A stretch of 35,188 nt of DNA, from NCBI GenBank assembly GCA_016200665.1, contig JACQEG010000151.1, forward strand, positions 1-35,188, written 5' to 3'. The notes under the pieces are model-generated. The model was given only the letters and a program-made list of their open reading frames with translations. It was not told the origin of the DNA and made no database searches. The translations under genes and the position numbers were made by a program. This DNA comes from Chloroflexota bacterium (GTDB lineage: Bacteria > Chloroflexota > Limnocylindria > Limnocylindrales > CSP1-4). Shown in pieces: positions 19,267-34,274 of this stretch (position 1 is the stretch's first letter; every line of letters starts with the position of its first letter).

Positions 19267-22200
19267 ATGTCCAGCCCATTCGAGCGCCTCGGCCGCTGGT
19301 CGGCGCGCCACCGGCGACTCGTCGTCGTTGCGTGGGCGCTGCTCCTGCTCGCCGCCGCGCCGCTTGCGCTCCGGACGAGCGACGCCCTTCGGTCGGGCGG
19401 CTTCATCCGCGAGGACCTCGAGTCGGCCCGAGCAAAGCAGCTCCTCGAGACCGAGATCGGCGTCCCCCAGGCCGCGGTCGTCGTCGTCTTCCACTCGGAC
19501 ACCCTGACCGCCGGCCAACCGGCCTTCGAGGGACCGGCGGCGGCGGCCGTCGCGGCCATCCCGAGCGCGCCCTACGTCAGCGGCACGCTGTTGCACCTGC
19601 TCCAGACCCGCCAGGTCTCGGCCGACGGCCACACCGCCTACGACGTCGTGTTCCTCGACCTGCCGGCCGACGATTCGCCGAAGGCCCTGCCGGGCCTGCG
19701 TGCTGCGCTGAAGACCGACGTCGGCGGGCTCGAGGTCGGGCTCGCGGGCGGCCCGGCGTTCTACGGCGACGTCCAGGACGTCTCCGAATCCGACCTGCGC
19801 CGGAGCGAGCTCATCTCGCTGCCGCTGGCGGCCCTCGCACTGCTGCTCGTGTTCGGGTCGGTCGTCGCCGCAGCCCTGCCGCTCGCCGTGGGTGGCGCGG
19901 CGGTCGCCACGGCGCTCGCCGCGATCTTCGTCGTCGCGAGCGTCATCCCGATGAGCATCTTCGTGCTGAACCTCGCGACCCTGCTCGGCCTCGGGCTCGG
20001 CGTCGACTACTCGCTGCTCATGACGAGCCGCTTCCGCGAGGAGCTCGCGGCCCGGGGCGACCGGCGCGAGGCGGTGGAGGATGCGATCGGCGCCACGGTC
20101 GCGACGGCCGGTCGGGCGGTGTTCTTCTCGGGCGTGACCGTGCTGCTCGGCCTGCTGGGCCTGGTGCTGTTCGACTTCATGATCCTGCGCTCGGTCGGGA
20201 TCGCCGGGGCAATCGTCGTCGGGCTGGCCGTCACGGCGGCGCTGACGCTGCTGCCGGCCCTGTTCTCGTTCGTGGGCGTGCGCCTCGACGCCCTCCGGGT
20301 CCGGCGGGTCAGCACCCGACCGCCCGAGGAGGGCCCGTGGGCACGGCTGGCCCAATGGGTCATGGCCCGGCCGGTCGCGGTCCTCGTCCCGACGCTTGCC
20401 GTCCTGCTGCTCCTCGGCGTGCCGTTCCTCCACGTCCAGTTCAACGCGCCGGACTCGCGGATCCTGCCCGAGTCCGTCCCGTCGCGGCAGTGGTTCGATC
20501 GCCTCGAGGCCGCCTTCGGGCCCGGCCCATTTGCGCCGATCGTCCTCGCGATCCGGACCGACGGCCCGGCCACCGCGCCAGCCAACGTGGCCGCCCTCTA
20601 CGACTACTCCCGCCGCCTGGCCGCAGATCCCCGGGTCGAGCGCGTCGACGGCTTCGTCGACGTCGACCCGCGCCTCACCCTGCAGCAGTACCAGCTGCTC
20701 TACGCGAGCCCATCGGGGCCGCCGGACCGCTTCGTCCAGGAGGCGCTCGCGGCCACGACGAACGGGAACCTGACGGACTTCACGATCACGACCTGGTACG
20801 GCCCGAACGACACGCCCGGCCGGACGCTCGTCCGCGACCTGCGCAGCGCCACCGGCGCGCTCGCCCCGCCCGCGGGCAGCCACGTCCTGGTCGGCGGCGG
20901 CGCGGCCGACGTCGAGGACGTCGTGTCGGGGATCGGCGCCGACTTCCCGCGAACCGCCGCGTTCATCCTCGTCACGACCTACGCCGTGCTGTTCCTGCTG
21001 CTGCGCTCGGTGTTCCTGCCGATCAAGGCCGTCGTCATGAACAGCCTCTCGATCCTGGCGTCGTTCGGCGCGCTCGTGTGGATCTTCCAGGACGGCAACC
21101 TGTCGGCGCTCCTCGGCACGCGGCCGCTGGGGTTCGTCGAGACCACCCAGCCGGTGATCCTGTTCTGCGTCCTGTTCGGGCTGTCGATGGACTACGAGGT
21201 CTTCCTGCTCACCCGGATGCGCGAGTCGTGGGACCGCGAACGCGACAACCGGGCCGCCGTGGCCCATGGCCTGGAGCGAAGCGGCCGGATCGTGACCTCG
21301 GCGGCGCTCATCGTCGTCGTCGTCGCCGGGTCGTTCGCGTTCGCCGACATCGTCCTCATCAAGGCCCTCGGCCTTGGCATCGCGATCGCGGTCGCCCTCG
21401 ACGCCACGGTCGTCCGGGCGCTGCTCGTGCCGGCGACGATGCGCCTCCTGGGCAAGTGGAACTGGTGGCTGCCGGAGGCCCTCGCCCGCCGGATGCGCCT
21501 GGTCATCACCGCGGCGCTCAGCCTCGTGATCCTCGCGGGCTGCACTGGCGGCCCCATCCTCGCCAACCCTCCGATCTCGACGCGAGCGCCCGCCGCCACG
21601 CCGGCACCCAGCCCCCGGCCGGAGGACCCGCAGCCCATCGTCTTCCCGCGCGACGACGGGCCCCACGATCGCCTGACCGAGTGGTGGTACTACACCGGTC
21701 ACCTCCTCTCGGACGACGGCCGCCGGTTCGGCTTCGAGGCCGTCGTGTTCCGGGCCGAGCGCGGCTCGGCGCCGGTGACCTGGGCCAGCCACCTCGCCCT
21801 CACCGATGAATCCGGCAAGCGGTTCCTCGTCGGCCAGCGGGCCTCGGTCGGCGGCTCGGTCGATCAGTCCTCCCGCCAAGCCGACGGCAGCCCGACGGGC
21901 TACCGGCTCGCCATGCCCGACCCTGCCGCAGCCGCCGATCCGGCCACGGCATGGCTCATGCGCGGCTTCAACGGCCACGACCACCTCACGGCCGCGATCA
22001 GCCCCGCGGAAGCGGGCGGTTCGACGTCCGCCTTCGGGCTCGACCTGGCCCTCAACTCGACGAAGCCCGCCGTCCTCCACGGTCGCGACGGCTGGGTCGA
22101 CTTCGGGCCGGCCGGCGGCTCGTACTACTACTCGCGGACGCGCATGGACGCCTCCGGCACGCTCACCCTCGACGGGGCCGCGCTGCACGTCAGGGGGACC

Positions 22201-22677
22201 GCATGGTTCGACCACCAGTGGGGCGACTTCATCTCCGTCGGCGGTGGCGGCTGGGACTGGTTTGCGGTGAACCTCGACGACGGGACGGACATCACGCTGT
22301 CGCTCGTTCGCGGGGCCGATGGCACGCCGCCACTCGTCTACGGCACGATCGTCGACCTCGCCGGGTACGCCCGACATCTCACCCGGGACCAGTTCACGGT
22401 CCGCGCGACGGGGTCATGGACCAGCCCCACGACCGGGGCGACGTACCCGGCCGGCTGGCGGATCGAGATCCCGGACGCCAGCCTCGTCATCGACCTGGCC
22501 CCGACGCTCCCGAACCAGGAGCTCGACACGCGACTGACGACCGGAGTCGTGTACTGGGAAGGCTCGCAGCGGGTGACCGTCGACGGCCTCACCGCGGCCA
22601 GCGGCGGCGAGGCGTACGTCGAGCTGACGGGCTACGGCCCGTCGTCCCTGCCGACCTCGGCTCCCACCGCGCCGTGA
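19267..22677 (+). CDS. MMPL-family RND transporter fused to a CrtC/AttH lipocalin-like lipoprotein domain
   Basis: 1136 residues in one frame. Residues 1-740 are an MMPL transporter: helix at 18-36, external domain, five helices (about 182-335), helix 370-390, second external domain, five more helices (about 563-722). Both family signatures are present: GLGVDYSLLMTSRFREE (D247) and GLSMDYEVFLLTRMRES (D642), the latter helices carrying the proton path. At 743 a complete lipoprotein signal peptide begins (MRLVITAALSLVILAGC, lipobox Cys759), then a Pro-rich linker and a ~350-residue lipocalin-type domain with DRLTEWWYYTGHL, RTRMDASG and WFDHQWGDF, as in CrtC/AttH (hydratase or lipid-binding) proteins. 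MMPL proteins export lipids; the fused domain could bind the cargo outside. An internal start at 21493 is possible. Confidence 0.87.
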   Translation: MSSPFERLGRWSARHRRLVVVAWALLLLAAAPLALRTSDALRSGGFIREDLESARAKQLLETEIGVPQAAVVVVFHSDTLTAGQPAFEGPAAAAVAAIPSAPYVSGTLLHLLQTRQVSADGHTAYDVVFLDLPADDSPKALPGLRAALKTDVGGLEVGLAGGPAFYGDVQDVSESDLRRSELISLPLAALALLLVFGSVVAAALPLAVGGAAVATALAAIFVVASVIPMSIFVLNLATLLGLGLGVDYSLLMTSRFREELAARGDRREAVEDAIGATVATAGRAVFFSGVTVLLGLLGLVLFDFMILRSVGIAGAIVVGLAVTAALTLLPALFSFVGVRLDALRVRRVSTRPPEEGPWARLAQWVMARPVAVLVPTLAVLLLLGVPFLHVQFNAPDSRILPESVPSRQWFDRLEAAFGPGPFAPIVLAIRTDGPATAPANVAALYDYSRRLAADPRVERVDGFVDVDPRLTLQQYQLLYASPSGPPDRFVQEALAATTNGNLTDFTITTWYGPNDTPGRTLVRDLRSATGALAPPAGSHVLVGGGAADVEDVVSGIGADFPRTAAFILVTTYAVLFLLLRSVFLPIKAVVMNSLSILASFGALVWIFQDGNLSALLGTRPLGFVETTQPVILFCVLFGLSMDYEVFLLTRMRESWDRERDNRAAVAHGLERSGRIVTSAALIVVVVAGSFAFADIVLIKALGLGIAIAVALDATVVRALLVPATMRLLGKWNWWLPEALARRMRLVITAALSLVILAGCTGGPILANPPISTRAPAATPAPSPRPEDPQPIVFPRDDGPHDRLTEWWYYTGHLLSDDGRRFGFEAVVFRAERGSAPVTWASHLALTDESGKRFLVGQRASVGGSVDQSSRQADGSPTGYRLAMPDPAAAADPATAWLMRGFNGHDHLTAAISPAEAGGSTSAFGLDLALNSTKPAVLHGRDGWVDFGPAGGSYYYSRTRMDASGTLTLDGAALHVRGTAWFDHQWGDFISVGGGGWDWFAVNLDDGTDITLSLVRGADGTPPLVYGTIVDLAGYARHLTRDQFTVRATGSWTSPTTGATYPAGWRIEIPDASLVIDLAPTLPNQELDTRLTTGVVYWEGSQRVTVDGLTAASGGEAYVELTGYGPSSLPTSAPTAP

Positions 22678-22765
22678 GGCAGGGTCCCGAGCACCCGGCG
22701 GGAGGGGGCCGCAGGGCGGTCCATTCGGCACTTTCCCCGTGCGTGTTTCCGAGGACGATGCCCGC

Positions 22766-23203
22766 ATGCGGGTGACCCTCGGCCTCCGCGGCGACTACGC
22801 GGTCCGGGCGATGCTCGCGCTCGCGAGCGCGGAGCCGGATGACCGCCCGATGAGCGTGCGCTGGATCGCCGAGCGGATGGCGATCCCGGTGCGGTTCCTG
22901 CCGCACGTCATGACCGACCTCAGCCGCGCGGGCCTCGTTGTCGGCGCGCCGGGCCGCCGGGGTGGCTACCGGCTCGGGCGGACGGCCGACCTGATCTCCG
23001 TGCTGCAGGTGGTGGACGCGGTCGAGGCCGAGGACGAGATCCCGCGCTGCGTCCTTCGCGGCGGGCCCTGCCGGCCGGACGGCCGCTGCGCGGTCCACGA
23101 CCTGTTCGCGGGCGCGAGCGAGGCGATGCGGCTCGAGCTGTCGCGCCAGAGCCTGGCGGAGCTCGCCGGCACCGACGGCATCGGGGCGCTCACCCGGCGC
23201 TGA
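22766..23203 (+). CDS. Rrf2-family transcriptional regulator (NsrR/IscR-like)
   Basis: 145 residues. Winged helix with GDYAVRAMLALAS, SVRWIAERMAIPVRFLPHVMTDLSRAGLV and GRRGGYRLGR, then the dimer helix, then three cysteines C95, C102 and C108 (spacing x6, x5). This matches the cluster-binding loop of IscR/NsrR apart from one extra residue. Such proteins bind a [2Fe-2S] or [4Fe-4S] cluster and sense NO or redox state. Being directly upstream of nirK in the same direction suggests control of nitrite reductase. The ATG at 22766 (GAGG nine bases upstream, MRVTLGLRGDYAVRA as usual for the family) is preferred to the GTG at 22739. Confidence 0.9.
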   Translation: MRVTLGLRGDYAVRAMLALASAEPDDRPMSVRWIAERMAIPVRFLPHVMTDLSRAGLVVGAPGRRGGYRLGRTADLISVLQVVDAVEAEDEIPRCVLRGGPCRPDGRCAVHDLFAGASEAMRLELSRQSLAELAGTDGIGALTRR

Positions 23204-23266
23204 GGCGCCACATTCCGGGCCGAACCGGCGCGCCGCGGTCCCGCGTGATTCAGGCCGAATGGCATA

Positions 23267-23294
23267 TTGCGACGGTGTGAGTTCGGGTCATATT
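23267..23294 (+). promoter_or_regulatory. Predicted nirK promoter
   Basis: TTGCGA (23267-23272), 16 bases, CATATT (23289-23294). The stretch CATATT also occurs at 23263-23268, each copy followed by a GCGAC or CGCAC sequence, so there may be a 26-bp repeated protein-binding half-site. Confidence 0.5.
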
Positions 23295-23311
23295 CGCACC
23301 GTAGCGGTGCG
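23295..23311. promoter_or_regulatory. Inverted repeat at the predicted nirK transcription start (operator candidate)
   Basis: CGCACCG-TAG-CGGTGCG, perfect 7-bp arms, directly after the -10 element, where a repressor dimer such as the adjacent Rrf2 protein could block initiation. It could instead be a 5' leader hairpin. Confidence 0.5.
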
Positions 23312-23368
23312 CGTTCCAAGAGAGACCGCCAGGAAGGCGGTCGGGACGCCGCCGAGGGAGTGACTCGA

Positions 23369-24748
23369 ATGACTCGGATGAGGGCGAGCCTGCTCATCGC
23401 AGTCGTCTCGCTGGTCGCGGCGGCATGCAGCTCAGCTGGGGCCGCCCCGAAGTGGACCTTCCCCCCGGCGCAGGCCCAGGAAGCCGCAGCCTTCCAGAGC
23501 CCCGCGGCACAGCCCGGCGGCGAGATCCTCGGCCTGATCGAGATCACCGCCGCCGATCTCTCGTTCAGCCCGAGCGCGGTGACCGTCGCCCTCGCCGGCG
23601 CCTACACCGTCAAGCTGACGAACACCGGCGCGATCCAGCACAACATCACCTTCGCCGACGGCACGAGCGCCGTGGCCGATCCCGGCCAGACCGCGAGCGT
23701 GACCGTGCACGTCCCCGGCGGCGGGCTGATGTTCAGCTGCTCCATCCCCGGCCACGCCCAGGCGGGCATGACCGGCTCGATCACCGTCGGCACGATGCCG
23801 ATGGGCTCGACCATGCCCGGCATGCCCGGCGCATCGAGCGCCCCGACGACCGCGACCCCGTCCGCCGACCCGAACGCGCCGGCCTACGTCCTCCGCGACG
23901 CGACCGCGCCGGCGGTCCTGCCCGGAACGGTCCACGACGTCGACCTCCCGATCATCGAGAAGGACATCACGGTCGCGAAGGGCTTCGTCGTCCACGCCTG
24001 GACCTTCGGCGGCACGGTCCCCGGGCCGGTCATCCGCGTCCACCTCGGCGACACGGTCAGGGTCCACCTGACGAACCAGGGGACGATGTCGCACTCGATC
24101 GATTTCCACGCCAGCCAGACGGCGATGAACCACCAGATGGTCGAGATCAAGCCCGGCGAGACCTTCACCTACACCTTCACCGCCGACTACGCCGGCGTCT
24201 GGATGTACCACTGCGGCACGGCGCCGGCCCTCCACCACATCGCCAACGGCATGTTCGGGATGGTCATCGTCGAGCCGAAGGGCGGCCTGCCCGAGGTCGA
24301 CAACGAGTTTGCCTTCGTCCAGAGCGAGTGGTACCTCGGGGCCCAGGGCGAGCCGGCGGATTACTCGAAGGCGTCCTCGGGCGCGCCCGCTCCCGACTTC
24401 GTCGTCTTCAACGGCATCGCCAACCAGTACAAGGACAACCCGATCCAGGTCACCACGAAGGGCCGCGTCCGGGTCTTCGTCCTCGACGCCGGGCCGAGCA
24501 TCGACAGCTCGTACCACGTCGTCGGCACGATCTTCGACCAGGTCATCAAGGAGGGCGTCGCGCTCCTCCGCGGCAATGCCGGTGGCTGGGGCGCCCAGGC
24601 GGTCGATCTCTCGCCCGCGCAGGGGGCGATCATCGAGTTCAGCCCCCGGGAGGACGGGATGTACCCGTTCGTCACCCACGCCTTCAACTTCGTCGTCCGC
24701 GGCGCGATCGGCATCTTCATGGCCGGCGACGGCGACCCGCTGAACTGA
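23369..24748 (+). CDS. nirK: Copper-containing nitrite reductase with fused N-terminal cupredoxin, lipoprotein
   Basis: 459 residues. Lipoprotein signal (lipobox Cys20), then an extra cupredoxin domain (about 52-140) with type-1 copper ligands H91, C124, H129, M134. After a Met/Ser/Pro-rich linker come the two NirK cupredoxin domains: SHSIDFHAS gives H242 (T1), catalytic D245 and H247 (T2); MYHCGTAPALHHIANGM gives H281 (T2), C282, H290 and M295 (T1); FVTHAF gives H437 (T2). H383 in SSYHVVG is probably the second catalytic residue. The enzyme reduces nitrite to NO at the outer membrane face; the fused domain likely passes electrons. ATG 23369 has GAGGGAG eight bases upstream. Chloroflexota and some Hyphomicrobium NirKs have this extra domain. 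Confidence 0.93.
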   Translation: MTRMRASLLIAVVSLVAAACSSAGAAPKWTFPPAQAQEAAAFQSPAAQPGGEILGLIEITAADLSFSPSAVTVALAGAYTVKLTNTGAIQHNITFADGTSAVADPGQTASVTVHVPGGGLMFSCSIPGHAQAGMTGSITVGTMPMGSTMPGMPGASSAPTTATPSADPNAPAYVLRDATAPAVLPGTVHDVDLPIIEKDITVAKGFVVHAWTFGGTVPGPVIRVHLGDTVRVHLTNQGTMSHSIDFHASQTAMNHQMVEIKPGETFTYTFTADYAGVWMYHCGTAPALHHIANGMFGMVIVEPKGGLPEVDNEFAFVQSEWYLGAQGEPADYSKASSGAPAPDFVVFNGIANQYKDNPIQVTTKGRVRVFVLDAGPSIDSSYHVVGTIFDQVIKEGVALLRGNAGGWGAQAVDLSPAQGAIIEFSPREDGMYPFVTHAFNFVVRGAIGIFMAGDGDPLN

Positions 24749-24764
24749 GTTCCGCGCGTCTCCC

Positions 24765-24830
24765 GCGCGCCATCCCCGGGCGCGCCTCCCTGACCCGTCG
24801 GCGCCCGCTCGGCACTCCCCCGAGCGGGCG
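24765..24830 (+). terminator. Tandem GC hairpins after nirK
   Basis: First stem GCGCGCC/GGCGCGC (24765-24771 with 24779-24785, 7-nt loop) starts 17 bases after the stop. Second stem has perfect 11-bp arms (24802-24812 with 24820-24830, CGCCCGCTCGG) and a 7-nt loop. Neither has a T tract, so they would be hairpin-only terminators or mRNA 3' stabilisers. The rest of the gap to 24970 holds a 14-bp direct repeat (24844-24857 and 24864-24877). Confidence 0.55.
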
Positions 24831-24970
24831 TCGCGGCGCCCCGCCCGCGCGGCGGCGACTCCACCCGCGCGGCGGCGCGAGTCGTGCCGGATGGGGGCGA
24901 GGGACGGCGTCCTCCGGCACTTCCCGTGGCGGGGTCGGATGGGCCTCAATCGATCGGGAAGGAGCGAACG

Positions 24971-25252
24971 ATGACGCTGCAGACACCGATTCGAGAAGCT
25001 CCGCGAACCGTTGAGTGGCCCGACGAGGAGTCGGATGACATGCTGGTCAACGGTCGGCCGATCGAGGACCGGAGCTTCGAGACCGTGGAGACGGTCGCGG
25101 CCGCAGCATGCGGCCTGGCCATCGGGGCAGCCCTGGGCGGTCCGATCGGCGCGGCCGTCGGCGTCGTGGTCGGCGGCTCAGCCGGACTTGCCGCCGGCGA
25201 GGCCCTCGAGCGGGCCATGGGTCGCGCTGCCGAGACGACGGACGCGGAATAG
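24971..25252 (+). CDS. Small glycine-zipper protein
   Basis: 93 residues. An acidic, polar N-terminus (1-40) precedes a hydrophobic Gly/Ala stretch (about 42-77: IGAALGGPIGAAVGVVVGGS), a glycine-zipper hairpin as in small membrane-inserting or membrane-associated proteins, then a short charged tail. No signal peptide. The ATG at 24971 has GGAAGGAG seven bases upstream. No family name can be given; it stands alone after the nirK terminator hairpins. Confidence 0.75.
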   Translation: MTLQTPIREAPRTVEWPDEESDDMLVNGRPIEDRSFETVETVAAAACGLAIGAALGGPIGAAVGVVVGGSAGLAAGEALERAMGRAAETTDAE

Positions 25253-25573
25253 TCCGCCGCCGTTCGCCTGAGCGGCCGCGCTGCGGGTGCCGTGCCGTCA
25301 ATCGTCATGCGGCCCCGTGCCGCCACGTTTCTGCCAGGTGCCACTCAGGCGAGTGTTCGTCACGGTCGCTTGCGCAGCTGGCGGCGTTCTCGTGCTCGCG
25401 GTGCGGCGCCGAGGCCGCGAGTACCTGTCATGGAGCCGCCCCAGTGCTCCCTGACAGGAATTGGCTGACCAAGGCTCGCCTGGGTGTTCACTGACAGAAA
25501 CCTGGACGTCGCCGCGGTCCCCGAGGGACGATCCACGCGCGCTCGAGGGCCTCGCGCCGAGAGCGCCACGGCG
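25253..25573. other. Non-coding gap of 321 bp
   Basis: Between the glycine-zipper gene and the 3' end of the VKOR gene. No open frame here has codon use or motifs like its neighbours. It holds one long hairpin (25424-25458) and a second CTGACAG copy at 25491-25497. Nothing else recognised; no tRNA-like fold seen. Confidence 0.6.
25424..25458. terminator. 13-bp hairpin, likely bidirectional terminator
   Basis: CCTGTCATGGAGC pairs with GCTCCCTGACAGG with one mismatch around a 9-nt loop. It lies where transcripts from the glycine-zipper gene (+) and the DsbA-VKOR operon (-) converge. No strong T tract on either side. Confidence 0.5.
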
Positions 25574-26053
25574 TCAGCCCGGAGTGTCCTCGATGACCGT
25601 CGGGTTGCCGCGGAGCCAGACGACGAGCGCGATGACGAACCGCAGGATCAGGGACAGGCCGTAGCTCGTGCACCAGACGCAGACCGCGCCGATGACGAAC
25701 ACCTGCAGGTACAGGAAGTAGATCTCGAAGAGGACCCCCGCCAGCGACAGGCCATAGTGCAGCAGCAGCAGGGCGTAGAGGTTCGTTCGCCACCACGCGA
25801 TCGCGAGCGTCAGCAGGATCAGGGACAGCACGACCCCGAAGACCGCGACAGGGATGCCGTTGATCCGGCTGTAGGAGCTCAGGGCCACCGTCTCGCAGCC
25901 CGCGAGCGGGCCGCCACAGATCGGGATGCCGTTCCCGAGTTCGACGACCGAGAGGTAGCTCGCGATCGCCAGGCCGATGACGTCGAGGACGGCGAGGATC
26001 AGGCCCGGGTGGATCCCGAAGATCGGCTGGACGGCGACCCGCTTGCGAAGCAC
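25574..26053 (-). CDS. Vitamin K epoxide reductase (VKOR) family protein
   Basis: 159 residues, four membrane helices. The loop cysteine pair is in PICGGPLAGCETVALSSYSRINGIPVA, with the conserved Ser and the GIPVAVFG turn, and the quinone-side CxxC is CVWC in the last helices. Bacterial VKORs take electrons from DsbA-like proteins and pass them to quinone, keeping disulfide formation going. It lies nine bases after the DsbA-like gene. The GTG start at 26053 has its own TAGGCT box six bases upstream. Confidence 0.95.
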   Translation of the reverse strand: MLRKRVAVQPIFGIHPGLILAVLDVIGLAIASYLSVVELGNGIPICGGPLAGCETVALSSYSRINGIPVAVFGVVLSLILLTLAIAWWRTNLYALLLLHYGLSLAGVLFEIYFLYLQVFVIGAVCVWCTSYGLSLILRFVIALVVWLRGNPTVIEDTPG

Positions 26054-26059
26054 GTCCGA

Positions 26060-26065
26060 AGCCTA
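26060..26065 (-). promoter_or_regulatory. -10 box of VKOR formed by the DsbA stop codon
   Basis: TAGGCT on the minus strand: the TAG (26063-26065) is the stop codon of the DsbA-like gene, and the GTG of VKOR follows six bases after the box. Suggests an internal leaderless promoter within the operon. Confidence 0.5.
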
Positions 26066-26890
26066 CGAGGCCGCGGGCGACGGCGCCGGCGAGCTCGACG
26101 GGCTCGGGCTGTAGCTCGCGAGGGCCTGGGTGATCAGTGTGTGCAGCTGGTCGTAGGTCGGCACGCCCGAGAGGGCCTTGCCGTTGATCCGGAGCGTCGG
26201 CGTGGAGTTGATGCCCGCCGCCGCGGCCTCCGTCGTTCGTGTCGCGACCTGCTGGGCCAGGTCGGTCCTCGTGATGCACGAGCTCCAGGCCGTCATCTCG
26301 ACCTCGGCCGCGGTCGCGATCCGGGCGATGAACTCGTCGCTGTGGTCGCCGCGGTTCTCGCGACCCTGGTTCCAGAACACGAGATCGTGGAAGTCCCAGT
26401 ACTTGCCCTGCTCGGCCGCGCAGGCCGCCCCGACGGCCAGTCGCAGCGACTCGGTCCCGGAGCCGCGATCGATGATGTCGATGTCCTTGGATTCGATGCG
26501 CACGAGGCCCGGACGGACGAAGTCGGTCAGGAGGCCCGGCAGGTCCGACTGCACGAAGAGCTTGCAGGCCGGGCACTGGAAGTCCGAGAAGATCTCGATG
26601 ACCACCGGCGCATTCGCGGCGCCGGCCGATTCGTCGGTCTGGGTGATTCCGGCATACGAGGTCGGAGGCGTGACCAGGTTCTTGCTGCCGCCGTTGAGGA
26701 TCCCGCTGGCGAACACGACGATCACCGCGCCGATGAGGACCGCCCCGATGGAGGTCAGGAGGACTGGCGACTGCCAGGCCGGCCGCTGGTCCGTCTTGCG
26801 CGTCGGCTTCCGGTGCGGCGTGACCGGACGGTCGTAGCGGGCCTGGGCTCGGCGGTCGCGCCGAGAGGCGGGGGGCGTGGATCGGGACAT
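26063..26890 (-). CDS. Membrane-anchored DsbA-like thiol-disulfide oxidoreductase
   Basis: 275 residues. A basic cytoplasmic N-terminus (1-40), one membrane helix (about 43-65), then a thioredoxin_4/DsbA domain outside the membrane: EIFSDFQCPACKLF with a CPAC active site, a helical insertion with WDFHDLVFWNQGREN, and the cis-Pro loop in INSTPTLRINGKAL, ending in a Ser/Pro tail. It should introduce disulfides into exported proteins and be reoxidised by the VKOR encoded just downstream. A lone Cys occurs in AACAAE and in SSCITRT of the helical region. Divergent from the ECF sigma gene. Confidence 0.93.
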   Translation of the reverse strand: MSRSTPPASRRDRRAQARYDRPVTPHRKPTRKTDQRPAWQSPVLLTSIGAVLIGAVIVVFASGILNGGSKNLVTPPTSYAGITQTDESAGAANAPVVIEIFSDFQCPACKLFVQSDLPGLLTDFVRPGLVRIESKDIDIIDRGSGTESLRLAVGAACAAEQGKYWDFHDLVFWNQGRENRGDHSDEFIARIATAAEVEMTAWSSCITRTDLAQQVATRTTEAAAAGINSTPTLRINGKALSGVPTYDQLHTLITQALASYSPSPSSSPAPSPAAS

Positions 26891-27132
26891 CGGTGGGGAC
26901 CTCGGAGCTGGACGCCCTGGGGGCGTGCGGAACGACGGCCGGGACTTCCCAGCGTCGTCAGCATCGAGCCCGGACCTGACAATCCACAGGGCCGAAGGTC
27001 CCGCCCGACCCGGGTCCCACGGGCCGCGAGCCTCGGGCCGGACCTCTCAGGATGGTGTCTGCAGATGGCGCGCACCATCGGCCGGTCGCGCGCATCGAAT
27101 CAGGTGAAGCCCACCGGAGGCAGGGAGGGCGC

Positions 27133-27675
27133 TTGGAGCGGGAGCTCGTTGAGGCGGCCCGCCGGGGCGATCGGGCGGCGTATGACGTCCTCGTTCGCCG
27201 GAAGGTCGAATCGGTGTACCGAACCGCACGCACGATCCTCGGCAACGAGGCCGACGCCCAGGACGCGACGCAGGAGGCCTTCGTCGCGGCCTGGCGGCAC
27301 CTGCCGCGGCTGCGGGATCCCGAGCGGTTCGATGCCTGGCTCGGTCGGATCGTCGTCAACGCCTGCCGCCAGACCCTGCGTCACCGCGGCGCGGTCCGGG
27401 AGATCGCGATGCCCGAGGACGCCGGCGAGCGGCATTTCACCACGCCGGCGGCAGCCGACCCTGGCTCGAGCGTGATCGACGCGCTGTCGTTCGATCGGGC
27501 CTTCGAGCGGCTCTCGGTCGACGACCGGGTGATCCTCACGCTCCACCACGCCGACGGCCGCGGCCTCGACGAGATCGGAGACATCCTGGGGATCCCGACC
27601 GGCACGGTGAAGTCCCGCCTCCTCCGCGCCCGGCGTGCCCTCGAGCGCTCGCTCGACCGGGAGCGCCCCTCGTGA
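27133..27675 (+). CDS. ECF-type RNA polymerase sigma factor
   Basis: 180 residues from a TTG start. Region 2: ARRGDRAAYDVLVRRKVESVYRTARTILGNEADAQDATQEAFVAAWRHLPRLRDPERFDAWLGRIVVNACR; region 4: FERLSVDDRVILTLHHADGRGLDEIGDILGIPTGTVKSRLLRARRALE. No region 1 or 3, as in ECF factors. TTG 27133 is preceded by AGGGAGGG and puts the start just before region 2; an in-frame ATG at 27052 would add 27 residues without family character and lacks a ribosome site. The TGA overlaps the next start as GTGA, the usual arrangement of an ECF factor with its anti-sigma factor. Confidence 0.92.
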   Translation: MERELVEAARRGDRAAYDVLVRRKVESVYRTARTILGNEADAQDATQEAFVAAWRHLPRLRDPERFDAWLGRIVVNACRQTLRHRGAVREIAMPEDAGERHFTTPAAADPGSSVIDALSFDRAFERLSVDDRVILTLHHADGRGLDEIGDILGIPTGTVKSRLLRARRALERSLDRERPS

Positions 27676-29963
27676 CGCCGCTCGACGACGAAGAACTCAC
27701 CACCCACCTCAGGCACCGATCCGGCGAGCCGCGGACGGCCAGGTCGCTCGCTGACCAGGTCCCCGCGCGAATCGCCGGCGAGCACCAGCTGGCCACTCGC
27801 CCGTGGGACCGCTGGCGATGGCCGTCGACGCCGAGCCGGAGGGCAAGCGGCTGGCGAACCGCCGCGACCGTTGTCAGTGGGGCGCTCATCCTCGTGCTTG
27901 CATCGGCGTTGATCGCCCTCGCCCCGCTGAGCCCACCCGCCGCCAGCCCGGCGCGAACGTGGTTGCTGACGAACGATCAGCTCATCGCGGTCGCCCGCGC
28001 GGCCGCAGGCGACCCGTCGAACGTGGGTCGAGCGGTCGTTGCCGAGGTCAGGCTCGCGCGGGCCGAGGTCGACTGCGCCGAACCCCCCTGCCCGGCGATC
28101 TACAGCCTCGCGATTGGCTACACCGACGCGGGTCCGCGCTCGCTCGTCCGCGTCGACGGTCTCCCCGAATCGCCGTCGTGTCCCCCGCCCGGAAGCGACT
28201 GCACGGTCGCGATCCCGACGACCGGGCGGATGGCAGTGATCATCGGCCGGGGCAGGGTCACGTTCCTCGGCTGGGTCCGTCTCGGCGCGGATGACGGCGC
28301 CTGGAGCCCCGGGTCTCTCAGCTCGGCCGACGCGGATCCGCTATCCCTGCAAGGTCGGCTGGTCGTCGTGGATGGCTGGCTGACGGGGTATGGCGGACCG
28401 ATCCTCTGCCCGGCTGGGATCCCGCCATCGACGGGCGTCGCCGCCCGAGAGCAGGGCTATGCCTGCGGGGATGCCGCGTGGATCACCGCGCAGCGCTACG
28501 TCTCGACAACCGTCTCGTCGGCGGGCGTCGCCGTGCATCCACCCGCGGATGGGGTCCGCGTCCAGAACGGGGCATACGAGGCGTTCGCCCGCGCTCCAAC
28601 CGCGCAGGCCGAGCCGCGCCACGGGCTGTACCTGGTCGATGTGATCGGCGCCGTGGAGGATTGCTTCGATTGCCCGTCGCCCCGCGTCGGGCGCCTCGTG
28701 GCCCGAATCGAACCGATCGAGCTCCCGCTGGAAATGGCACCGGCATCGCCGCCGGTGTCGTCGCAGCCGAGCCCTCCGGACGCAGCGTTCCCCGACTGGA
28801 TGCTCACGCAGGCGCAGCTCATCGCAGCGGTCAGGCAGGCGACGCTCGGCGTCGGTGTTGGCAGGGTCGTCGTGGCGAACGTGATCTTCGCGTCGAGCGG
28901 TGACTGCGGAGGCAGCCCGCCCGCGCCGAGTTGTTACCCGATCGTCGCCGGCTCCGACCCGCCAATCCGGCTCATGAACCCGCCGTCGAGCTCGTGCCCG
29001 GCGGCGTGGCGATGCCTGATGCTGGCGCGGCCCTACCTGCCGGACGGTGGCCCCTTCGCGTTGCGGATCCGCGGCGATGGGGCGGTCGACTGGATCGACT
29101 GGGTCTATACCCAGGGCGACGGCAACGTCACGTGGTCGTTCGACGGGTTCAGGGAGCGGCTGGGCCGCCTCTCGGCCACTGAGCGGGATGCCTACGAGCT
29201 CTACGTCGTGTCCGGCGCGGTGCGCGGGGCGGCGTTCGTGACGGATTGCATCCCTGACCCGACGTCCGACGAGGAGTCCTACGGTTGCATCGGCCAGCCC
29301 GCGTGGCTCACCGCGAGCTCACCGGCCGGGAGTGACTCGCCGTGGTTGGTCATGGCCGAGCCAACGAATCCGATCCGACTCCAGAACGGCTCGCTCGGCA
29401 TCGCGACGGCGACCGACCCCACGATGAAGGGGCTGTCCTCGCCGGAGGGGGTCTACGTCGTTCGGCCGGTGCTGCGGGCACCGGGCGGCGTCTGCCTGTT
29501 CTGCAGCGGGCCACTGGCGAAGCTGGTCGCGCGGCTTGATTGGTTGGTGCCGACATCGCCTGGCACCCCTGGGCCTGCGGCGTCGCTCAGCCCCGCGGCC
29601 GCGGCCGCCCGCTCAGTGGTGGAGCGCTTCGAGTCGTCCCGGGCATCGGGCGATTGGCCGACGGCCTGGGCGATGCTCGGATCGGCAACCCGGGCGGTCT
29701 TCGGATCGCTCGAGCGGTTCGGCCAACAGGAGGCCGACTACAACGCGACCGGAGCGACGGTCTACCAGATTGCCGATCCCGTTCAGGACCCGAGCCTCCT
29801 GAGCGCCGACAACATCGGCACGGCGTGGACTGACATCGTGCCCGCCACCGCCTGGTACGTCGCCGTGAACCATCCCCAGGTCGAGGGCGCGTCGGCCGGC
29901 CTCGAGGGCCTCGTGGTGGCGACAGGCACGGACGGCCACGTGCACGTCTGGATCGTCCACTGA
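27672..29963 (+). CDS. Large anti-sigma-like membrane protein with two eight-cysteine repeat modules
   Basis: 763 residues. A cytoplasmic N-terminus (1-60) with DDEELTTHLRHR, one membrane helix (about 62-86), then an external part of nearly 680 residues. Two tandem copies of one module are visible: A (95-350) and B (374-627), opening with TWLLTNDQLIAVAR / DWMLTQAQLIAAVR and VGRAVVAEV / VGRVVVANV, and ending with GLYLVDV..CFDC..RVGRLVARIE / GVYVVRP..CLFC..PLAKLVARLD. Each has eight Cys (A: 135, 140, 170, 177, 246, 265, 331, 334; B: 412, 421, 442, 448, 526, 539, 608, 611) and the protein has no others. A C-terminal ~120 residues look NTF2-like. The GTGA overlap with the sigma gene suggests an anti-sigma role. 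No zinc-anti-sigma HxxxCxxC motif is present in the cytoplasmic part. Confidence 0.85.
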   Translation: MTPLDDEELTTHLRHRSGEPRTARSLADQVPARIAGEHQLATRPWDRWRWPSTPSRRASGWRTAATVVSGALILVLASALIALAPLSPPAASPARTWLLTNDQLIAVARAAAGDPSNVGRAVVAEVRLARAEVDCAEPPCPAIYSLAIGYTDAGPRSLVRVDGLPESPSCPPPGSDCTVAIPTTGRMAVIIGRGRVTFLGWVRLGADDGAWSPGSLSSADADPLSLQGRLVVVDGWLTGYGGPILCPAGIPPSTGVAAREQGYACGDAAWITAQRYVSTTVSSAGVAVHPPADGVRVQNGAYEAFARAPTAQAEPRHGLYLVDVIGAVEDCFDCPSPRVGRLVARIEPIELPLEMAPASPPVSSQPSPPDAAFPDWMLTQAQLIAAVRQATLGVGVGRVVVANVIFASSGDCGGSPPAPSCYPIVAGSDPPIRLMNPPSSSCPAAWRCLMLARPYLPDGGPFALRIRGDGAVDWIDWVYTQGDGNVTWSFDGFRERLGRLSATERDAYELYVVSGAVRGAAFVTDCIPDPTSDEESYGCIGQPAWLTASSPAGSDSPWLVMAEPTNPIRLQNGSLGIATATDPTMKGLSSPEGVYVVRPVLRAPGGVCLFCSGPLAKLVARLDWLVPTSPGTPGPAASLSPAAAAARSVVERFESSRASGDWPTAWAMLGSATRAVFGSLERFGQQEADYNATGATVYQIADPVQDPSLLSADNIGTAWTDIVPATAWYVAVNHPQVEGASAGLEGLVVATGTDGHVHVWIVH

Positions 29964-30008
29964 CCCCACGTCCGGCAAGTGGACCGGACCAACGAGGGGC
30001 CGCTGACG

Positions 30009-30020
30009 GGACCATGGTCC
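30009..30020. promoter_or_regulatory. Palindrome upstream of the haem membrane protein operon
   Basis: GGACCATGGTCC is a perfect 12-bp palindrome. An outer pair, CCGGACC at 29984-29990 and GGTCCGG at 30016-30022, also forms an inverted repeat. It lies in the 130-bp gap before 30094; operator or terminator of the preceding gene are both possible. Confidence 0.35.
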
Positions 30021-30093
30021 GGCCCACAGGCTGAAACCTCCGCGGCACCCTTCGCCTCTACGGGGTATCGGGGGAGCCACCGCAGGGGTCGCC

Positions 30094-30876
30094 ATGGCAA
30101 TCGTTCCCAACTCGGTCACCGTCCAGCCGCGCTATGGGGCGCCCGCGCCCGCGCCGACGGCCGCGCACGCCCGGGCGGCGATCGTCCCGAAACGCGTGGC
30201 CGCGGGCGGGAGCCGCCTCTCCGGCGGGACGCTCGTCGCGGTCGGGGCGATGGTGGTGCTCGCGATCCTTTTCGCGACCGGCGAGATCCTCCCGGCGACG
30301 TCGGACCACCAGGTCCAGCTTCGCGGCTGGCTGACGGCGCGGGCGACGGGCATCGTCGCCCTGATCCTCCTGACCCTCGAGGTCGCGCTCGGCCTCGTCC
30401 TCAGCCACCCGACGAACAAGTCGACCTGGAAGCTCTCGAAGCGCCTCTTCCCCTGGCACGAGCACCTGTGGGTCTTCACGCTCGCCTTCGTCGCCGTTCA
30501 CGGCGTCATGCTCGCCGTCGATCGGTTCGCGAACGTCGGCTGGCTCGGAGCGCTCGTGCCGGGCATGAGCCAGTACCGGACGCTCCCGGTCGCGATCGGC
30601 ACGATCTCGCTGTACGCGCTGGTCGTCGTCGGCCTGACCGCCCGGATCACGAAGCTGCTGCCGTCGGGCTGGTGGCTGAAGCTCCACCGCCTGAGCCTCG
30701 TGGTCCTGGCGCTCGCGTGGGCCCACGGCATCCTCGCCGGCACCGACACGCCGATGCTCGGCGCGGTGTACGGCGCCACGTTCATGGCCGTCCTGCTGGC
30801 CGCCTTCTACCGCTATTGGGTCGTGCGCCAGGCACGCGTGACGTTCAGCTCATCGCTCCCGGAGGGCCATCGATGA
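30094..30876 (+). CDS. Ferric-reductase-like transmembrane haem protein (YedZ/FRD family)
   Basis: 260 residues. A basic/Pro-Ala N-terminus (1-42), then about six membrane helices. Histidines sit in pairs as in cytochrome-b-type ferric reductase domains: H122/H124 and H136 (FPWHEHLWVFTLAFVAVHG), H198 and H211 (KLHRLSLVVLALAWAHG), enough for one or two b haems across the membrane. No FAD/NAD(P)H domain follows, so it is a membrane electron carrier, not a full reductase. First gene of four overlapping genes ending in apbE; its stop overlaps the next ATG as ATGA. Confidence 0.9.
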   Translation: MAIVPNSVTVQPRYGAPAPAPTAAHARAAIVPKRVAAGGSRLSGGTLVAVGAMVVLAILFATGEILPATSDHQVQLRGWLTARATGIVALILLTLEVALGLVLSHPTNKSTWKLSKRLFPWHEHLWVFTLAFVAVHGVMLAVDRFANVGWLGALVPGMSQYRTLPVAIGTISLYALVVVGLTARITKLLPSGWWLKLHRLSLVVLALAWAHGILAGTDTPMLGAVYGATFMAVLLAAFYRYWVVRQARVTFSSSLPEGHR

Positions 30877-31313
30877 CCGCCAATCCCGCTGTCCGCCGCT
30901 CGATCCTCGTCATCGGCGTCGTGCTGACCCTCGCCGCCGCGGCGGCCACGGTCCAGGCAGCCTCGCTGTGGGTGACCGCCACCGCCTCGCTGTCGACCCC
31001 GCCGATGTCCGTCTCGTCGATCCAGGTGGCGCTCGCCCGCGAGCAGTCCCGCTCCGCCATCCTCCAGGATCAGCTCGCCGCGATGCGCTCCGCCAGCGAC
31101 GACCTGGCCGCGGCGCTTGCGGCCGCCAATGACCAGGTCTCGACCGACCAGCTCACCGCCGATCAGCTCCGCGCCAGCCTGCAGGCGGCCCAGGCCAAGC
31201 TCGCGAAGCTCCAGGCCGCGCTCAAGTCTGCCCCCAGGACCACGACGACCACGACGACGCAGAGCGGTGGCACCGCGCCGACGCAGCCAACGGAGCCGCA
31301 CGACGATGACTGA
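30873..31313 (+). CDS. Membrane-anchored coiled-coil protein
   Basis: 146 residues. One N-terminal membrane helix or signal peptide (10-30), then a long coiled coil (about 50-118: repeated Leu/Ala heptads such as QDQLAAMRSASDDLAAALAA), then a tail with seven Thr in a row and an acidic end. No Cys, no haem or FMN-binding motif. No family recognised. ATGA overlap upstream and an 8-base overlap with the next gene show strict co-translation with the haem membrane protein and ApbE. Confidence 0.8.
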   Translation: MTANPAVRRSILVIGVVLTLAAAAATVQAASLWVTATASLSTPPMSVSSIQVALAREQSRSAILQDQLAAMRSASDDLAAALAAANDQVSTDQLTADQLRASLQAAQAKLAKLQAALKSAPRTTTTTTTQSGGTAPTQPTEPHDDD

Positions 31314-31755
31314 CCCGGCACGGCGCGCGACTCGAGTCGAGCTCCGGCTCCCGCCGCACATCGGGGTCTTCCTCGGCGCGTCGACGGCGGCCTACGCGGT
31401 GACCCTCGCCGGCGTGACCGCGCTCCAGGCCCAGAGCGAGGCCGCGCTGGTCGCCGATCGAGCGCCGGTCGTCGCGGGCGTCGACGCCATCGCCGCTCGG
31501 AACGCGCAGCTCGCGGCGGCGCTGTCGGCGGCCGGGGCCGACTACCAGGCCGCGACGGACGCGTACGTCGCCGACGGCGGGCGCCTGGCCGACCTCGAGC
31601 AGGCGCTCGCGGCCCTGGCGACGAAGGTCGCGACGATCGACGGCGTCAGCCGCAGCCTCCCGACCAGCGTGAACCTCCCGAAGGTTGTTCGACGAGTGAC
31701 CACGTCGACCGCGCCGGCAACGAGCTCCACGACGGGAGCCTCCGGGGTCCCGTGA
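31306..31755 (+). CDS. Second membrane-anchored helical protein, unknown function
   Basis: 149 residues. A basic N-terminus, one membrane helix (about 18-41), a long Ala/Gln/Glu-rich helical segment (42-112), and a Ser/Thr-rich C-terminal tail (131-149) ending in TTGASGVP. Same build as its upstream neighbour, so the pair may be distant paralogues or coil partners. The last residues faintly recall the [S/T]GA[T/S] core of ApbE flavinylation sites, but the usual Asp and following residues are missing. ATG at 31306 lies inside the previous gene (8-base overlap); its stop overlaps the apbE start as GTGA. Confidence 0.8.
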   Translation: MTDPARRATRVELRLPPHIGVFLGASTAAYAVTLAGVTALQAQSEAALVADRAPVVAGVDAIAARNAQLAAALSAAGADYQAATDAYVADGGRLADLEQALAALATKVATIDGVSRSLPTSVNLPKVVRRVTTSTAPATSSTTGASGVP

Positions 31756-32789
31756 TCGCAACCGGCGCAGCGCAGCGCGACGCGTCGGCGCATGCCGCCG
31801 GACAGCCGCCCGCAGTCCACCGGCGCGAGGCCCGGGCCATGGGCTCGCCGCTTCGGCTCCAGGTCCCGCTGTCCATACCGTCGCGGGTGGTCGAGCGCGC
31901 GTGGCGCCAGGCCCTCGACGAGTTCGAGGCGTCCGAGCAGGCGTTGTCCCGCTTCCGCGAGACGAGCGAGATCCACCAGGCCCGAATCGCGGGCGGGCGG
32001 TCGGACACCCCATCGCGACGCCTCGTGGCCGCGATCTCGGCGGCCGATCGGGCGCGGCGCGTGACCGACGGCAGGTTCGAGCCGCGTGTCCTGGGCGACC
32101 TCGAGCGGCTCGGCTCGGCCCCGATCGCGGTCGCCCCGCCGGCGCTCCGCGCCGCGCCGACGGTCGGTCGGCTGGTGCCGACGGTGGGCCGGCTCGTGCG
32201 CCGGGAAGGGCGCACCGGGCCAATCGATCTGCCGGTGCCCATCGACTTCGGCGGCATCGGCAAGGGCCTCGCGCTGCGCTGGGCCGCGCGTCGCCTCGAG
32301 GATGTCCTGGGCGGGTCGGCCTACCTGCTGGAGGCCGGCGGCGACATCGTCGCGGCAGGCTCGCCGGCCCGGCGCGCCGACGATCCGGGCTGGCGGATCG
32401 GCATCGAGGACCCGCGACTGCCGGCGTCGCGCGGCGTCGAGGGCCCGCTCGCCGTCATCGAGCTGCCGGACGGCGGCGGCGCGGTGGCGACGTCCTCCGT
32501 CCGGCGCGCCCGCTGGCAATCCCCCGACGGGCGGGCCGTCCATCACCTCATCGATCCCGCGACCGGCGAGCCGGGTGGCGCCGGCCTGCTGGCAGTGACG
32601 GTTCACGCTCCCGACCCGGCCTGGTCGGAGGTCTGGTCGAAGGCCCTGTTCCTGGAAGGCGCCCGGGGAATCGCGGCCCGCGCGCGATCGCAGGGGCTCG
32701 CCGCCTGGTGGGTCACCGCCGCGGGGATGCTCGAGATGACGGCCGCCGCGCGAGCTCGAACGGTCTGGGTCGCTGGCGAGACGGCCTAG
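31752..32789 (+). CDS. apbE: FAD:protein FMN transferase (ApbE)
   Basis: 345 residues. ApbE features: ARAMGSPLRL near the N-terminus, IDFGGIGKGLALRWA (164-178), YLLEAGGDIVAAG (191-203) and HHLIDPATGEPGGAGL. The enzyme moves FMN from FAD onto a Thr/Ser of a target protein, usually an extracytoplasmic FMN-binding domain in electron-transfer chains. No signal peptide or lipobox is visible, unlike many exported ApbEs. A small internal duplication reads PTVGRLV twice (about 136-149). GTG start inside GTGA. Its TAG stop and that of the convergent DinB gene share one CTAG palindrome at 32786-32789. Confidence 0.93.
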   Translation: MIATGAAQRDASAHAAGQPPAVHRREARAMGSPLRLQVPLSIPSRVVERAWRQALDEFEASEQALSRFRETSEIHQARIAGGRSDTPSRRLVAAISAADRARRVTDGRFEPRVLGDLERLGSAPIAVAPPALRAAPTVGRLVPTVGRLVRREGRTGPIDLPVPIDFGGIGKGLALRWAARRLEDVLGGSAYLLEAGGDIVAAGSPARRADDPGWRIGIEDPRLPASRGVEGPLAVIELPDGGGAVATSSVRRARWQSPDGRAVHHLIDPATGEPGGAGLLAVTVHAPDPAWSEVWSKALFLEGARGIAARARSQGLAAWWVTAAGMLEMTAAARARTVWVAGETA

Positions 32790-33334
32790 CGGGCGGCCTG
32801 GCCGCCGACCTCGACCGGGTGGGCGCCGGGCGGCCAGAGATCGAGCTGCGGCCGGCCATGCATCCCCTGGATGAGCGCGATCTCGCCCGCGTGGTAGGCG
32901 TCGTGGGTGATGCATCGCAGGATCAGTGACCCGCGTGTCAGGTGCTGGCCCGCCGGCGTCGGGAACGCCTCGTCGAGCATCTCCGGCGTCCATCGCCGCA
33001 GGCTCGATTCGACGATCGCCCAGCTCGCGGTCAGCGCGCCCTCGAGCTCTTCGGCGGTCCGGGGCCTGGTGAGGTCGTCCTCCCAGCCTTCCCACGTGCC
33101 GGGCTTGATGAACCCGACCGTCTCGAGGCCCGGCTCACCAAGGAACCCGCACAACCAGTAGACCCGCGTGCCGGCGGTGTGGGCGGCGATCGCCCAGATC
33201 GGCCAGTGCCCGGTGCCGCTCGTGTCGAGCACGGGTGCCGCGAGGGCGAGGTCGGCGTCGGACATCGCGCCGATCGCGTTGGTCAGCAGCTCGTTGTAGC
33301 GGCGCCAGCCGGCGTAGAAAGGCAGGAGGCTCAT
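32786..33334 (-). CDS. DinB-family protein
   Basis: 182 residues, four-helix bundle. The metal-binding triad of the DinB/YfiT fold is present: H52 in WAIAAHTAGTRVYW and H144/H148 in CITHDAYHAGEIALIQGMHG. Members act as thiol-dependent transferases or metal hydrolases (mycothiol- or bacillithiol-dependent in some phyla) and often respond to stress; substrate unknown. The ATG at 33334 has AGGAGG-like GCAGGAGG close upstream. It lies 52 bp after the FabL-like gene on the same strand. Confidence 0.9.
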   Translation of the reverse strand: MSLLPFYAGWRRYNELLTNAIGAMSDADLALAAPVLDTSGTGHWPIWAIAAHTAGTRVYWLCGFLGEPGLETVGFIKPGTWEGWEDDLTRPRTAEELEGALTASWAIVESSLRRWTPEMLDEAFPTPAGQHLTRGSLILRCITHDAYHAGEIALIQGMHGRPQLDLWPPGAHPVEVGGQAAR

Positions 33335-33386
33335 GGGCAGGCGATCCTGGCCGGGCTCGCGATCCGGACGCGGCGGGCGGGCCGGC

Positions 33387-34208
33387 TCATGACCCGGTGA
33401 TGAACTCGCCGCCGTCGACGCTGATGACATCGCCGTTGATGAAGCCGGCACCGGGGCCGGACAGGGCCACGATCGCGTTGGCCACGTCCTGGGGGGTCGT
33501 CATCCGGCCGGTCGGGTTGCGGCGCATCGTGATCTCGATCATCTGCTGCGCCTCGGGGATCTTCCGCAGGGCCGGCGTGTCGGTCACGCCGGCGCGGATC
33601 GCGTTGATCGTGGCGCCGGTGCCGGCCCGGGCCAGCTCCATCGCCAGCTGCCGGACGTGGCTCTCGAGCGCAGCCTTGGCCGACGACACGACGCCATAGC
33701 TGGGGACGACGCGCGTCGAGCCCTCGGAGGTCATGGCGAAGATCCGCGAGCCCTGGCCGAGCATCCCGCGCCGGTACAGGTCCTGGACCCAGTAGACGAG
33801 GCTGTTCGCCATGACGTCCTGGGTCATCTCCATCTTCTTGCGATCGACGCCGTCCTTCGGCTCCTGGGTCAGGAACGGGACGAGGCTGCCGAACGCGAGC
33901 GAGTGCATGACGACGTGGACGAACGGCTCCCGACCGTCGGCCCGCGCGGCCGCGAACCGCTCCCCGAGCTGATCGAGCGCCGCGGCGCGCTTCTCGTCGT
34001 CCGCCGCGTTCATGTTGATGAACAGGACGTCGCGGCCGGCGGCGGCCAGATCGGCCTTGAGCTCCTCGACGTGGGTGAGCGCCGCGCGGAAGTCGAGGTG
34101 GATGCCGCAGATGTTGTCGCCCGCCGCCGCGAGCGCCCGCGACGTGGCCTCGCCCATCCCGGACGAGGCGCCGAGGATCAGCGCCCAGGGCTCTCGCGCG
34201 TTCGACAT
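33387..34208 (-). CDS. Enoyl-ACP-reductase-like short-chain dehydrogenase (FabL type)
   Basis: 273 residues. Rossmann glycine motif LILGASSGMGEA (10-21), VMHSLAFGS, and active site Tyr171-x6-Lys178 in SYGVVSSAKAALES. The Y-x6-K spacing is that of FabI/FabL enoyl reductases, not the Y-x3-K of classical SDRs. The INAIRAGVTDTPALRKIP and ISVDGG segments also match FabL. It probably reduces enoyl-ACP or enoyl-CoA thioesters in fatty acid metabolism. The ATG at 34208 has GGAGGAG four bases upstream. A TAGACT box and an operator-like repeat lie about 70-100 bp upstream. Confidence 0.88.
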   Translation of the reverse strand: MSNAREPWALILGASSGMGEATSRALAAAGDNICGIHLDFRAALTHVEELKADLAAAGRDVLFINMNAADDEKRAAALDQLGERFAAARADGREPFVHVVMHSLAFGSLVPFLTQEPKDGVDRKKMEMTQDVMANSLVYWVQDLYRRGMLGQGSRIFAMTSEGSTRVVPSYGVVSSAKAALESHVRQLAMELARAGTGATINAIRAGVTDTPALRKIPEAQQMIEITMRRNPTGRMTTPQDVANAIVALSGPGAGFINGDVISVDGGEFITGS

Positions 34209-34274
34209 CGATCTCCTCCGAAGCCCGGGCTGTGAGCCCGTCTGCATGCGACGAACGCCTCTCGGGCGGGCCAG

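Follow-up and report, generated by a model that had tools for sequence, protein, structure and literature searches.

An ECF sigma factor and a probable membrane anti-sigma factor with cysteine-paired repeat modules in one family of Chloroflexota

Described sigma/anti-sigma pairs and the locus studied

Extracytoplasmic function (ECF) sigma factors possess only the sigma2 and sigma4 domains, and their genes are coupled to those of the cognate anti-sigma factors. The zinc motif Hx3Cx2C is frequent, though not obligatory, in the class I anti-sigma domain; class II anti-sigma factors employ a short two-helix segment that wraps around the sigma factor. AAC in the -35 element, CGT in the -10 element and positive autoregulation are no longer held to be obligatory features of ECF systems (PMC8103513). 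The two proteins described here would work like the known pairs of an ECF sigma factor and a membrane anti-sigma factor (PMC7406223, PMC8103513). In Mycobacterium tuberculosis, RslA, the anti-sigma factor of SigL, is membrane-associated and redox-sensitive, with a cytosolic anti-sigma domain (PMC2877774). The Cpx regulon of Escherichia coli includes dsbA, and NlpE appears to be a sensor of defective disulfide bonds (PMC6593411).

The window, as the whole stretch of DNA analysed is called here, is a complete contig of 35,188 bases from a 2.37-Mb genome that is 82% complete. Within it, a dsbA-vkor pair lies directly beside an ECF sigma factor gene and is divergent from it, and the sigma gene is followed by that of a large membrane protein, further referred to as the partner:

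25574-26053, minus strand: VKOR-type thiol oxidase that pairs with DsbA, a neighbour outside the sigma unit (Pfam VKOR, PF07884, E 2.7e-20)
26063-26890, minus strand: membrane-anchored DsbA-like oxidoreductase with a CPAC motif, a neighbour outside the sigma unit (Pfam Thioredoxin_4, 3.9e-25; DSBA, 2.8e-11)
27072-27099, plus strand: probable ECF promoter, with -35 GCACC at 27072-27076, a 15-nt spacer and -10 GCATCGAA at 27092-27099
27133-27675, plus strand: ECF sigma factor with sigma2 and sigma4 regions (Pfam Sigma70_r2, 5e-17; Sigma70_r4_2, 4e-13)
27672-29963, plus strand: membrane partner of 763 amino acids, a probable anti-sigma factor, with a GTG start inside a 4-nt overlap with the sigma stop
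27672-27866, plus strand: cytoplasmic N-terminus of the partner, residues 1-65, conserved and without cysteine, probably the sigma-binding segment
27867-27923, plus strand: single membrane-spanning helix of the partner, about residues 66-84 (Kyte-Doolittle 2.47)
27945-28730, plus strand: module 1 of the partner with eight cysteines, beta-rich in an AlphaFold2 model
28782-29558, plus strand: module 2 of the partner with eight cysteines, a homologue of module 1 (profile match 1.3e-76)
29559-29960, plus strand: C-terminal domain of the partner, without cysteine and without a Pfam match

A first-pass annotation of this DNA had recognised disulfide-making machinery beside the sigma gene, and the domain matches and the CPAC motif listed above bear this out. 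VKOR has four cysteines, C46, C53 and those of a CVWC motif (125-128), and the loop pair and CxxC of VKOR together with the CxxC of DsbA mark the two proteins as an oxidative folding pair.

In the sigma factor Pfam finds only Sigma70_r2 and Sigma70_r4_2, region 3 being absent, which is the domain composition of an ECF factor. The closest solved sequences are SigE, SigW, SigH and RpoE, and the closest named relatives in a scan with the sigma alignment come from Chloroflexi metagenome-assembled genomes. TTG at 27133, the start given in the first-pass annotation as well, is to be preferred to ATG at 27052, because the conserved promoter at 27072-27099 falls inside the longer reading. In its sigma2 plus sigma4 factor, the partner that crosses the membrane once and has a gene overlapping that of the sigma factor, the AAC in the -35 of the congeners and the probable autoregulation, the system is like RpoE/RseA, SigW/RsiW and SigK/RskA. 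It differs from them in the partner, which has no anti-sigma Pfam match or zinc motif, a short cytoplasmic part and previously undescribed outer modules, as well as in the -10, which is GCATCGAA rather than CGT. To a class II anti-sigma factor the partner is similar only in size and in its two predicted cytoplasmic helices.

The membrane partner and its modules

All 16 cysteines of the partner lie outside the membrane, eight in each module (135, 140, 170, 177, 246, 265, 331 and 334 in module 1; 412, 421, 442, 448, 526, 539, 608 and 611 in module 2); 135 is the first and 611 the last of them, and the cytoplasmic, membrane and C-terminal parts are cysteine-free. With an identity of 31% and an E value of 6e-18 between the two modules, a chance repeat can be dismissed. 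Both the distribution of the cysteines and the repeat had been noticed in the first-pass annotation, and its remark that no described anti-sigma factor of such architecture is known also holds for Pfam, NCBIfam, the PDB sequences and the papers searched; the partner itself has no match in Pfam or NCBIfam. The single hydrophobic segment is located at about residues 62-91, and the full-length model places the helix at 61-83.

In an alignment of 20 partners the stretch preceding the membrane, of 46-75 amino acids, follows a common pattern and has no cysteine in any of the sequences, i.e., the cytoplasmic cysteines of a zinc motif are absent from all 20. Pfam does not match a class I anti-sigma domain in the partner, although a diverged domain would escape such a search. 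Helices are predicted at residues 6-17 and 23-41 in the full-length model, whose poor quality (pLDDT 54.6) restricted its use to helix positions. In RslA the cytosolic anti-sigma domain reportedly holds redox-active cysteines, whereas those of the partner are all on the other side of the membrane. The C-terminal domain is 39% identical to stand-alone proteins of 209 and 219 residues encoded in two other genomes (G038 and G047) and is missing from the congeneric partners; it can be considered a domain fusion.

The cysteine pattern was analysed in 53 distinct full-length modules, 51 of which contain four, six or eight cysteines and only two an odd number. A coin-toss model gives 1.6e-13 for such a preponderance of even counts, a value to be read with the kinship of the modules in mind, which are hence not independent. 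The first core pair has one of its cysteines present in 52 of the 53 modules, the second pair one in all 53. A third pair, near the module end, is mostly present or absent as a whole; it takes the form of CxxC in the genus of the window, and most four-cysteine modules, which are often the second in their protein, lack it entirely. Eight cysteines per module occur only in the partner from the window, four or six being usual elsewhere; in its module 1 the conserved pairs would be C135/C140, C246/C265 and C331/C334, accompanied by a putative pair of its own, C170/C177. Since the cysteine numbers are even in 51 of the 53 modules, structural disulfides are likely, and a structural role appears to be a simpler reading than a redox-active one.

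Each module is predicted to be beta-rich: the AlphaFold2 model of module 1, built with 16 other module sequences, reached a pLDDT of 82.7 and a pTM of 0.82. When this model was compared with the PDB by Foldseek, no match reached significance (the lowest E was 0.06), which leaves the fold of the module uncertain, and a profile search of the PDB sequences yielded only a weak match, HalluTIM3-1 (E 0.07). Many of the top Foldseek matches, none of them significant, are OB-fold proteins, S1, Teb1, SSB, PriB and CcmE among them. The OB fold is a five-stranded closed barrel, and a double OB-type module is no more than a lead for the modelled structure.

Conservation of the pair, its promoter and the dsbA-vkor neighbourhood

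A search with profile A1, built from eight modules, detected the module in 29 of the 107 genomes of one Chloroflexota family; when 177 genomes of the class were searched, it was confined to that family. One to four modules are carried by the partners. The sigma gene stands directly upstream of the gene for the module protein in most loci, and an overlap of 4 nt between the sigma stop and the start of the latter is seen in 15 loci out of 20, the window included, and likewise in two further loci; the sigma orthologues of the relatives are 56-62% identical to that of the window. By these comparisons the sigma factor and the membrane partner form a conserved, mostly overlapping gene pair, and the coupling of the two put forward in the first-pass annotation agrees with this as well as with the conserved N-terminus of the partner.

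Some loci depart from the common arrangement. In G042 the sigma frame (L011, 3966-4451) is broken by an in-frame stop codon, reflecting either a sequencing error or decay. In G021 (L010, 2084-7294) two genes come after the sigma gene, the first for a membrane protein of 972 residues whose N-terminus is similar, the second for a module protein whose N-terminus is short; the anti-sigma and module parts may there be on separate proteins, and given the intervening membrane protein the module protein need not be the anti-sigma factor in that genome. In three loci (L082, L084 and L085, of the congeners G007, G004 and G008, respectively) the sigma/partner pair adjoins one common conserved downstream gene, whose homologue in the genome of the window lies on another contig, C11, away from the pair; the pair has therefore changed place.

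Seven loci, that of the window among them, have GAACC-N15-GCATCGAA or a closely similar form before the sigma gene, always with a spacing of 15 nt; L082 differs in the -35 and L080 in the -10, and the GCACC of the window is one base off, with CAC in place of the AAC of the congeners. G001, G004, G008 and G014 each have a single exact copy in the whole genome, located before the sigma gene, and the more distant sigma genes lack this exact form. Since a promoter with this fixed spacing recurs before the sigma genes, the sigma factor is probably autoregulated within the genus. An attempt to delineate a regulon from two-mismatch matches in the window's own genome was abandoned, the pattern being too loose (76 matches versus 12 in the reversed control).

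A promoter motif shared by dsbA (upstream of 26890) and the sigma gene (upstream of 27133), looked for at the suggestion of the first-pass annotation, had to be rejected: nothing like the sigma-type promoter is found upstream of dsbA in the window or in six congeners, nor at dsbA in the congeners searched genome-wide with one mismatch allowed. The four-gene neighbourhood, whose conservation the first-pass annotation had named as a check, was encountered in none of about 40 related loci, some of them on short contigs. Relatives of DsbA are encoded in 41 of 61 genomes, and vkor adjoins dsbA in 17 of the 20 relatives' loci read; the sigma gene and the module are absent from all dsbA loci read, as are dsbA and vkor from all module loci, with the same proviso of short contigs. 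The dsbA-vkor pair is also present in congeners without a module match, e.g., G003, G009 and G012.

The gene order in G014 is that of the window minus the sigma/partner cassette, namely MMPL, Rrf2, cupredoxin, vkor, dsbA, the membrane protein located at 30094 in the window, two genes, ApbE and FabI; G003, G012 and G008 agree with most of it. In these congeners dsbA and the 30094 homologue face each other over a gap of a few hundred bases, as compared with 3.2 kb in the window, and in G014, G008 and G004 the sigma/partner pair is located on contigs other than that with the dsbA-vkor cluster. As the cassette lies between dsbA and the 30094 gene only in the genome of the window among those searched, its insertion there would be the simplest reading, loss from all other genomes being less likely. 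The position of the pair beside dsbA-vkor is best read as due to chance and not as a sign of a conserved circuit.

The surrounding cluster, 19267-34247, is conserved in the congeners and comprises genes for MMPL, Rrf2, cupredoxin/multicopper oxidase, VKOR, DsbA, the 30094 membrane protein, ApbE, and DinB-like and FabI-like proteins; it looks like a neighbourhood of extracytoplasmic electron transfer and folding. It is also worth mentioning that its first frame (19267-22677), of 1136 residues, encodes an MMPL transporter fused to CrtC and lipocalin domains, and that its counterparts in several congeners are split over two overlapping frames.

A probable self-contained switch and its alternatives

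The best explanation, with a probability of roughly 0.7, is that in one Chloroflexota family the ECF sigma factor and its partner, acting as a membrane anti-sigma factor, form a self-contained switch with disulfide-stapled sensor modules and without a dedicated dsbA-vkor. The cysteine-free cytoplasmic N-terminus of the partner would hold the sigma factor, and the outer part would act as the sensor, in which an undescribed module of about 250 residues is present in one to four copies, each probably stapled by two to four disulfides. The sigma factor would be released by a signal at the modules, a ligand or envelope stress being most likely, perhaps after proteolysis of the partner, which is possible as the genome also codes for a site-2 protease family. 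Once free, the sigma factor would use the conserved promoter to transcribe its own operon. DsbA-VKOR, as a general house-keeping oxidase, probably introduces the disulfides of the modules but would be no dedicated part of the sigma circuit.

In a simple reading put forward in the first-pass annotation, the disulfide state of the modules controls the release of the sigma factor, which may in turn drive dsbA-vkor; reduction would then be what frees the sigma factor, and dsbA-vkor would restore oxidation. The divergent adjacency in the window and the 16 paired cysteines speak for this, and there is a precedent in NlpE/Cpx of E. coli (PMC6593411), where an envelope protein with disulfide-bonded cysteine pairs likewise reports to a cytoplasmic regulator. 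The likeness is one of working principle only: NlpE, unlike the partner, is a lipoprotein acting on a two-component system, and dsbA is in the Cpx regulon, whereas no such link is found for the sigma factor here, a promoter of its type being absent at dsbA in the window and the congeners. Moreover, the adjacency recurs in no related locus read, and dsbA-vkor exists as a cluster without the cassette, also in module-free congeners such as G003, G009 and G012, which makes this circuit very improbable. A reversible oxidant or metal switch formed by the third (CxxC) or another cysteine pair, with dsbA not being a target, is rather unlikely; variation of the third pair from module to module, next to two almost invariant core pairs, would fit it, but the loss of the third pair as a whole in most four-cysteine modules is what would be expected of a dispensable staple, and no regulon gene points to redox.

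It is quite doubtful that the partner is merely a co-transcribed surface protein under the control of the sigma factor, the true regulator being elsewhere. The arrangement in G021, where the protein encoded next to the sigma factor is another membrane protein of similar N-terminus and that of the module protein is merely short, is in line with such a role, as is the absence of a Pfam anti-sigma domain from the partner; the conservation of the N-terminus and the overlap of the genes in most loci argue against it. A new class of membrane anti-sigma factors, in which the stapled modules are the redox switch and their number and the optional third pair set its threshold, can be imagined as well and is improbable.

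The neighbourhood of dsbA-vkor and the sigma gene shows that a circuit suggested by adjacent genes in a single genome may not survive a comparison with relatives. As for the self-contained switch, its regulatory principle would be a familiar one, and no description of its sensor module turned up in the sources searched. What the locus offers is a probable sigma/anti-sigma pair with a sensor module unmatched in Pfam, NCBIfam and the PDB, in a family known here only from metagenome-assembled genomes; with the module and a probable promoter defined, the module and its signal become testable.
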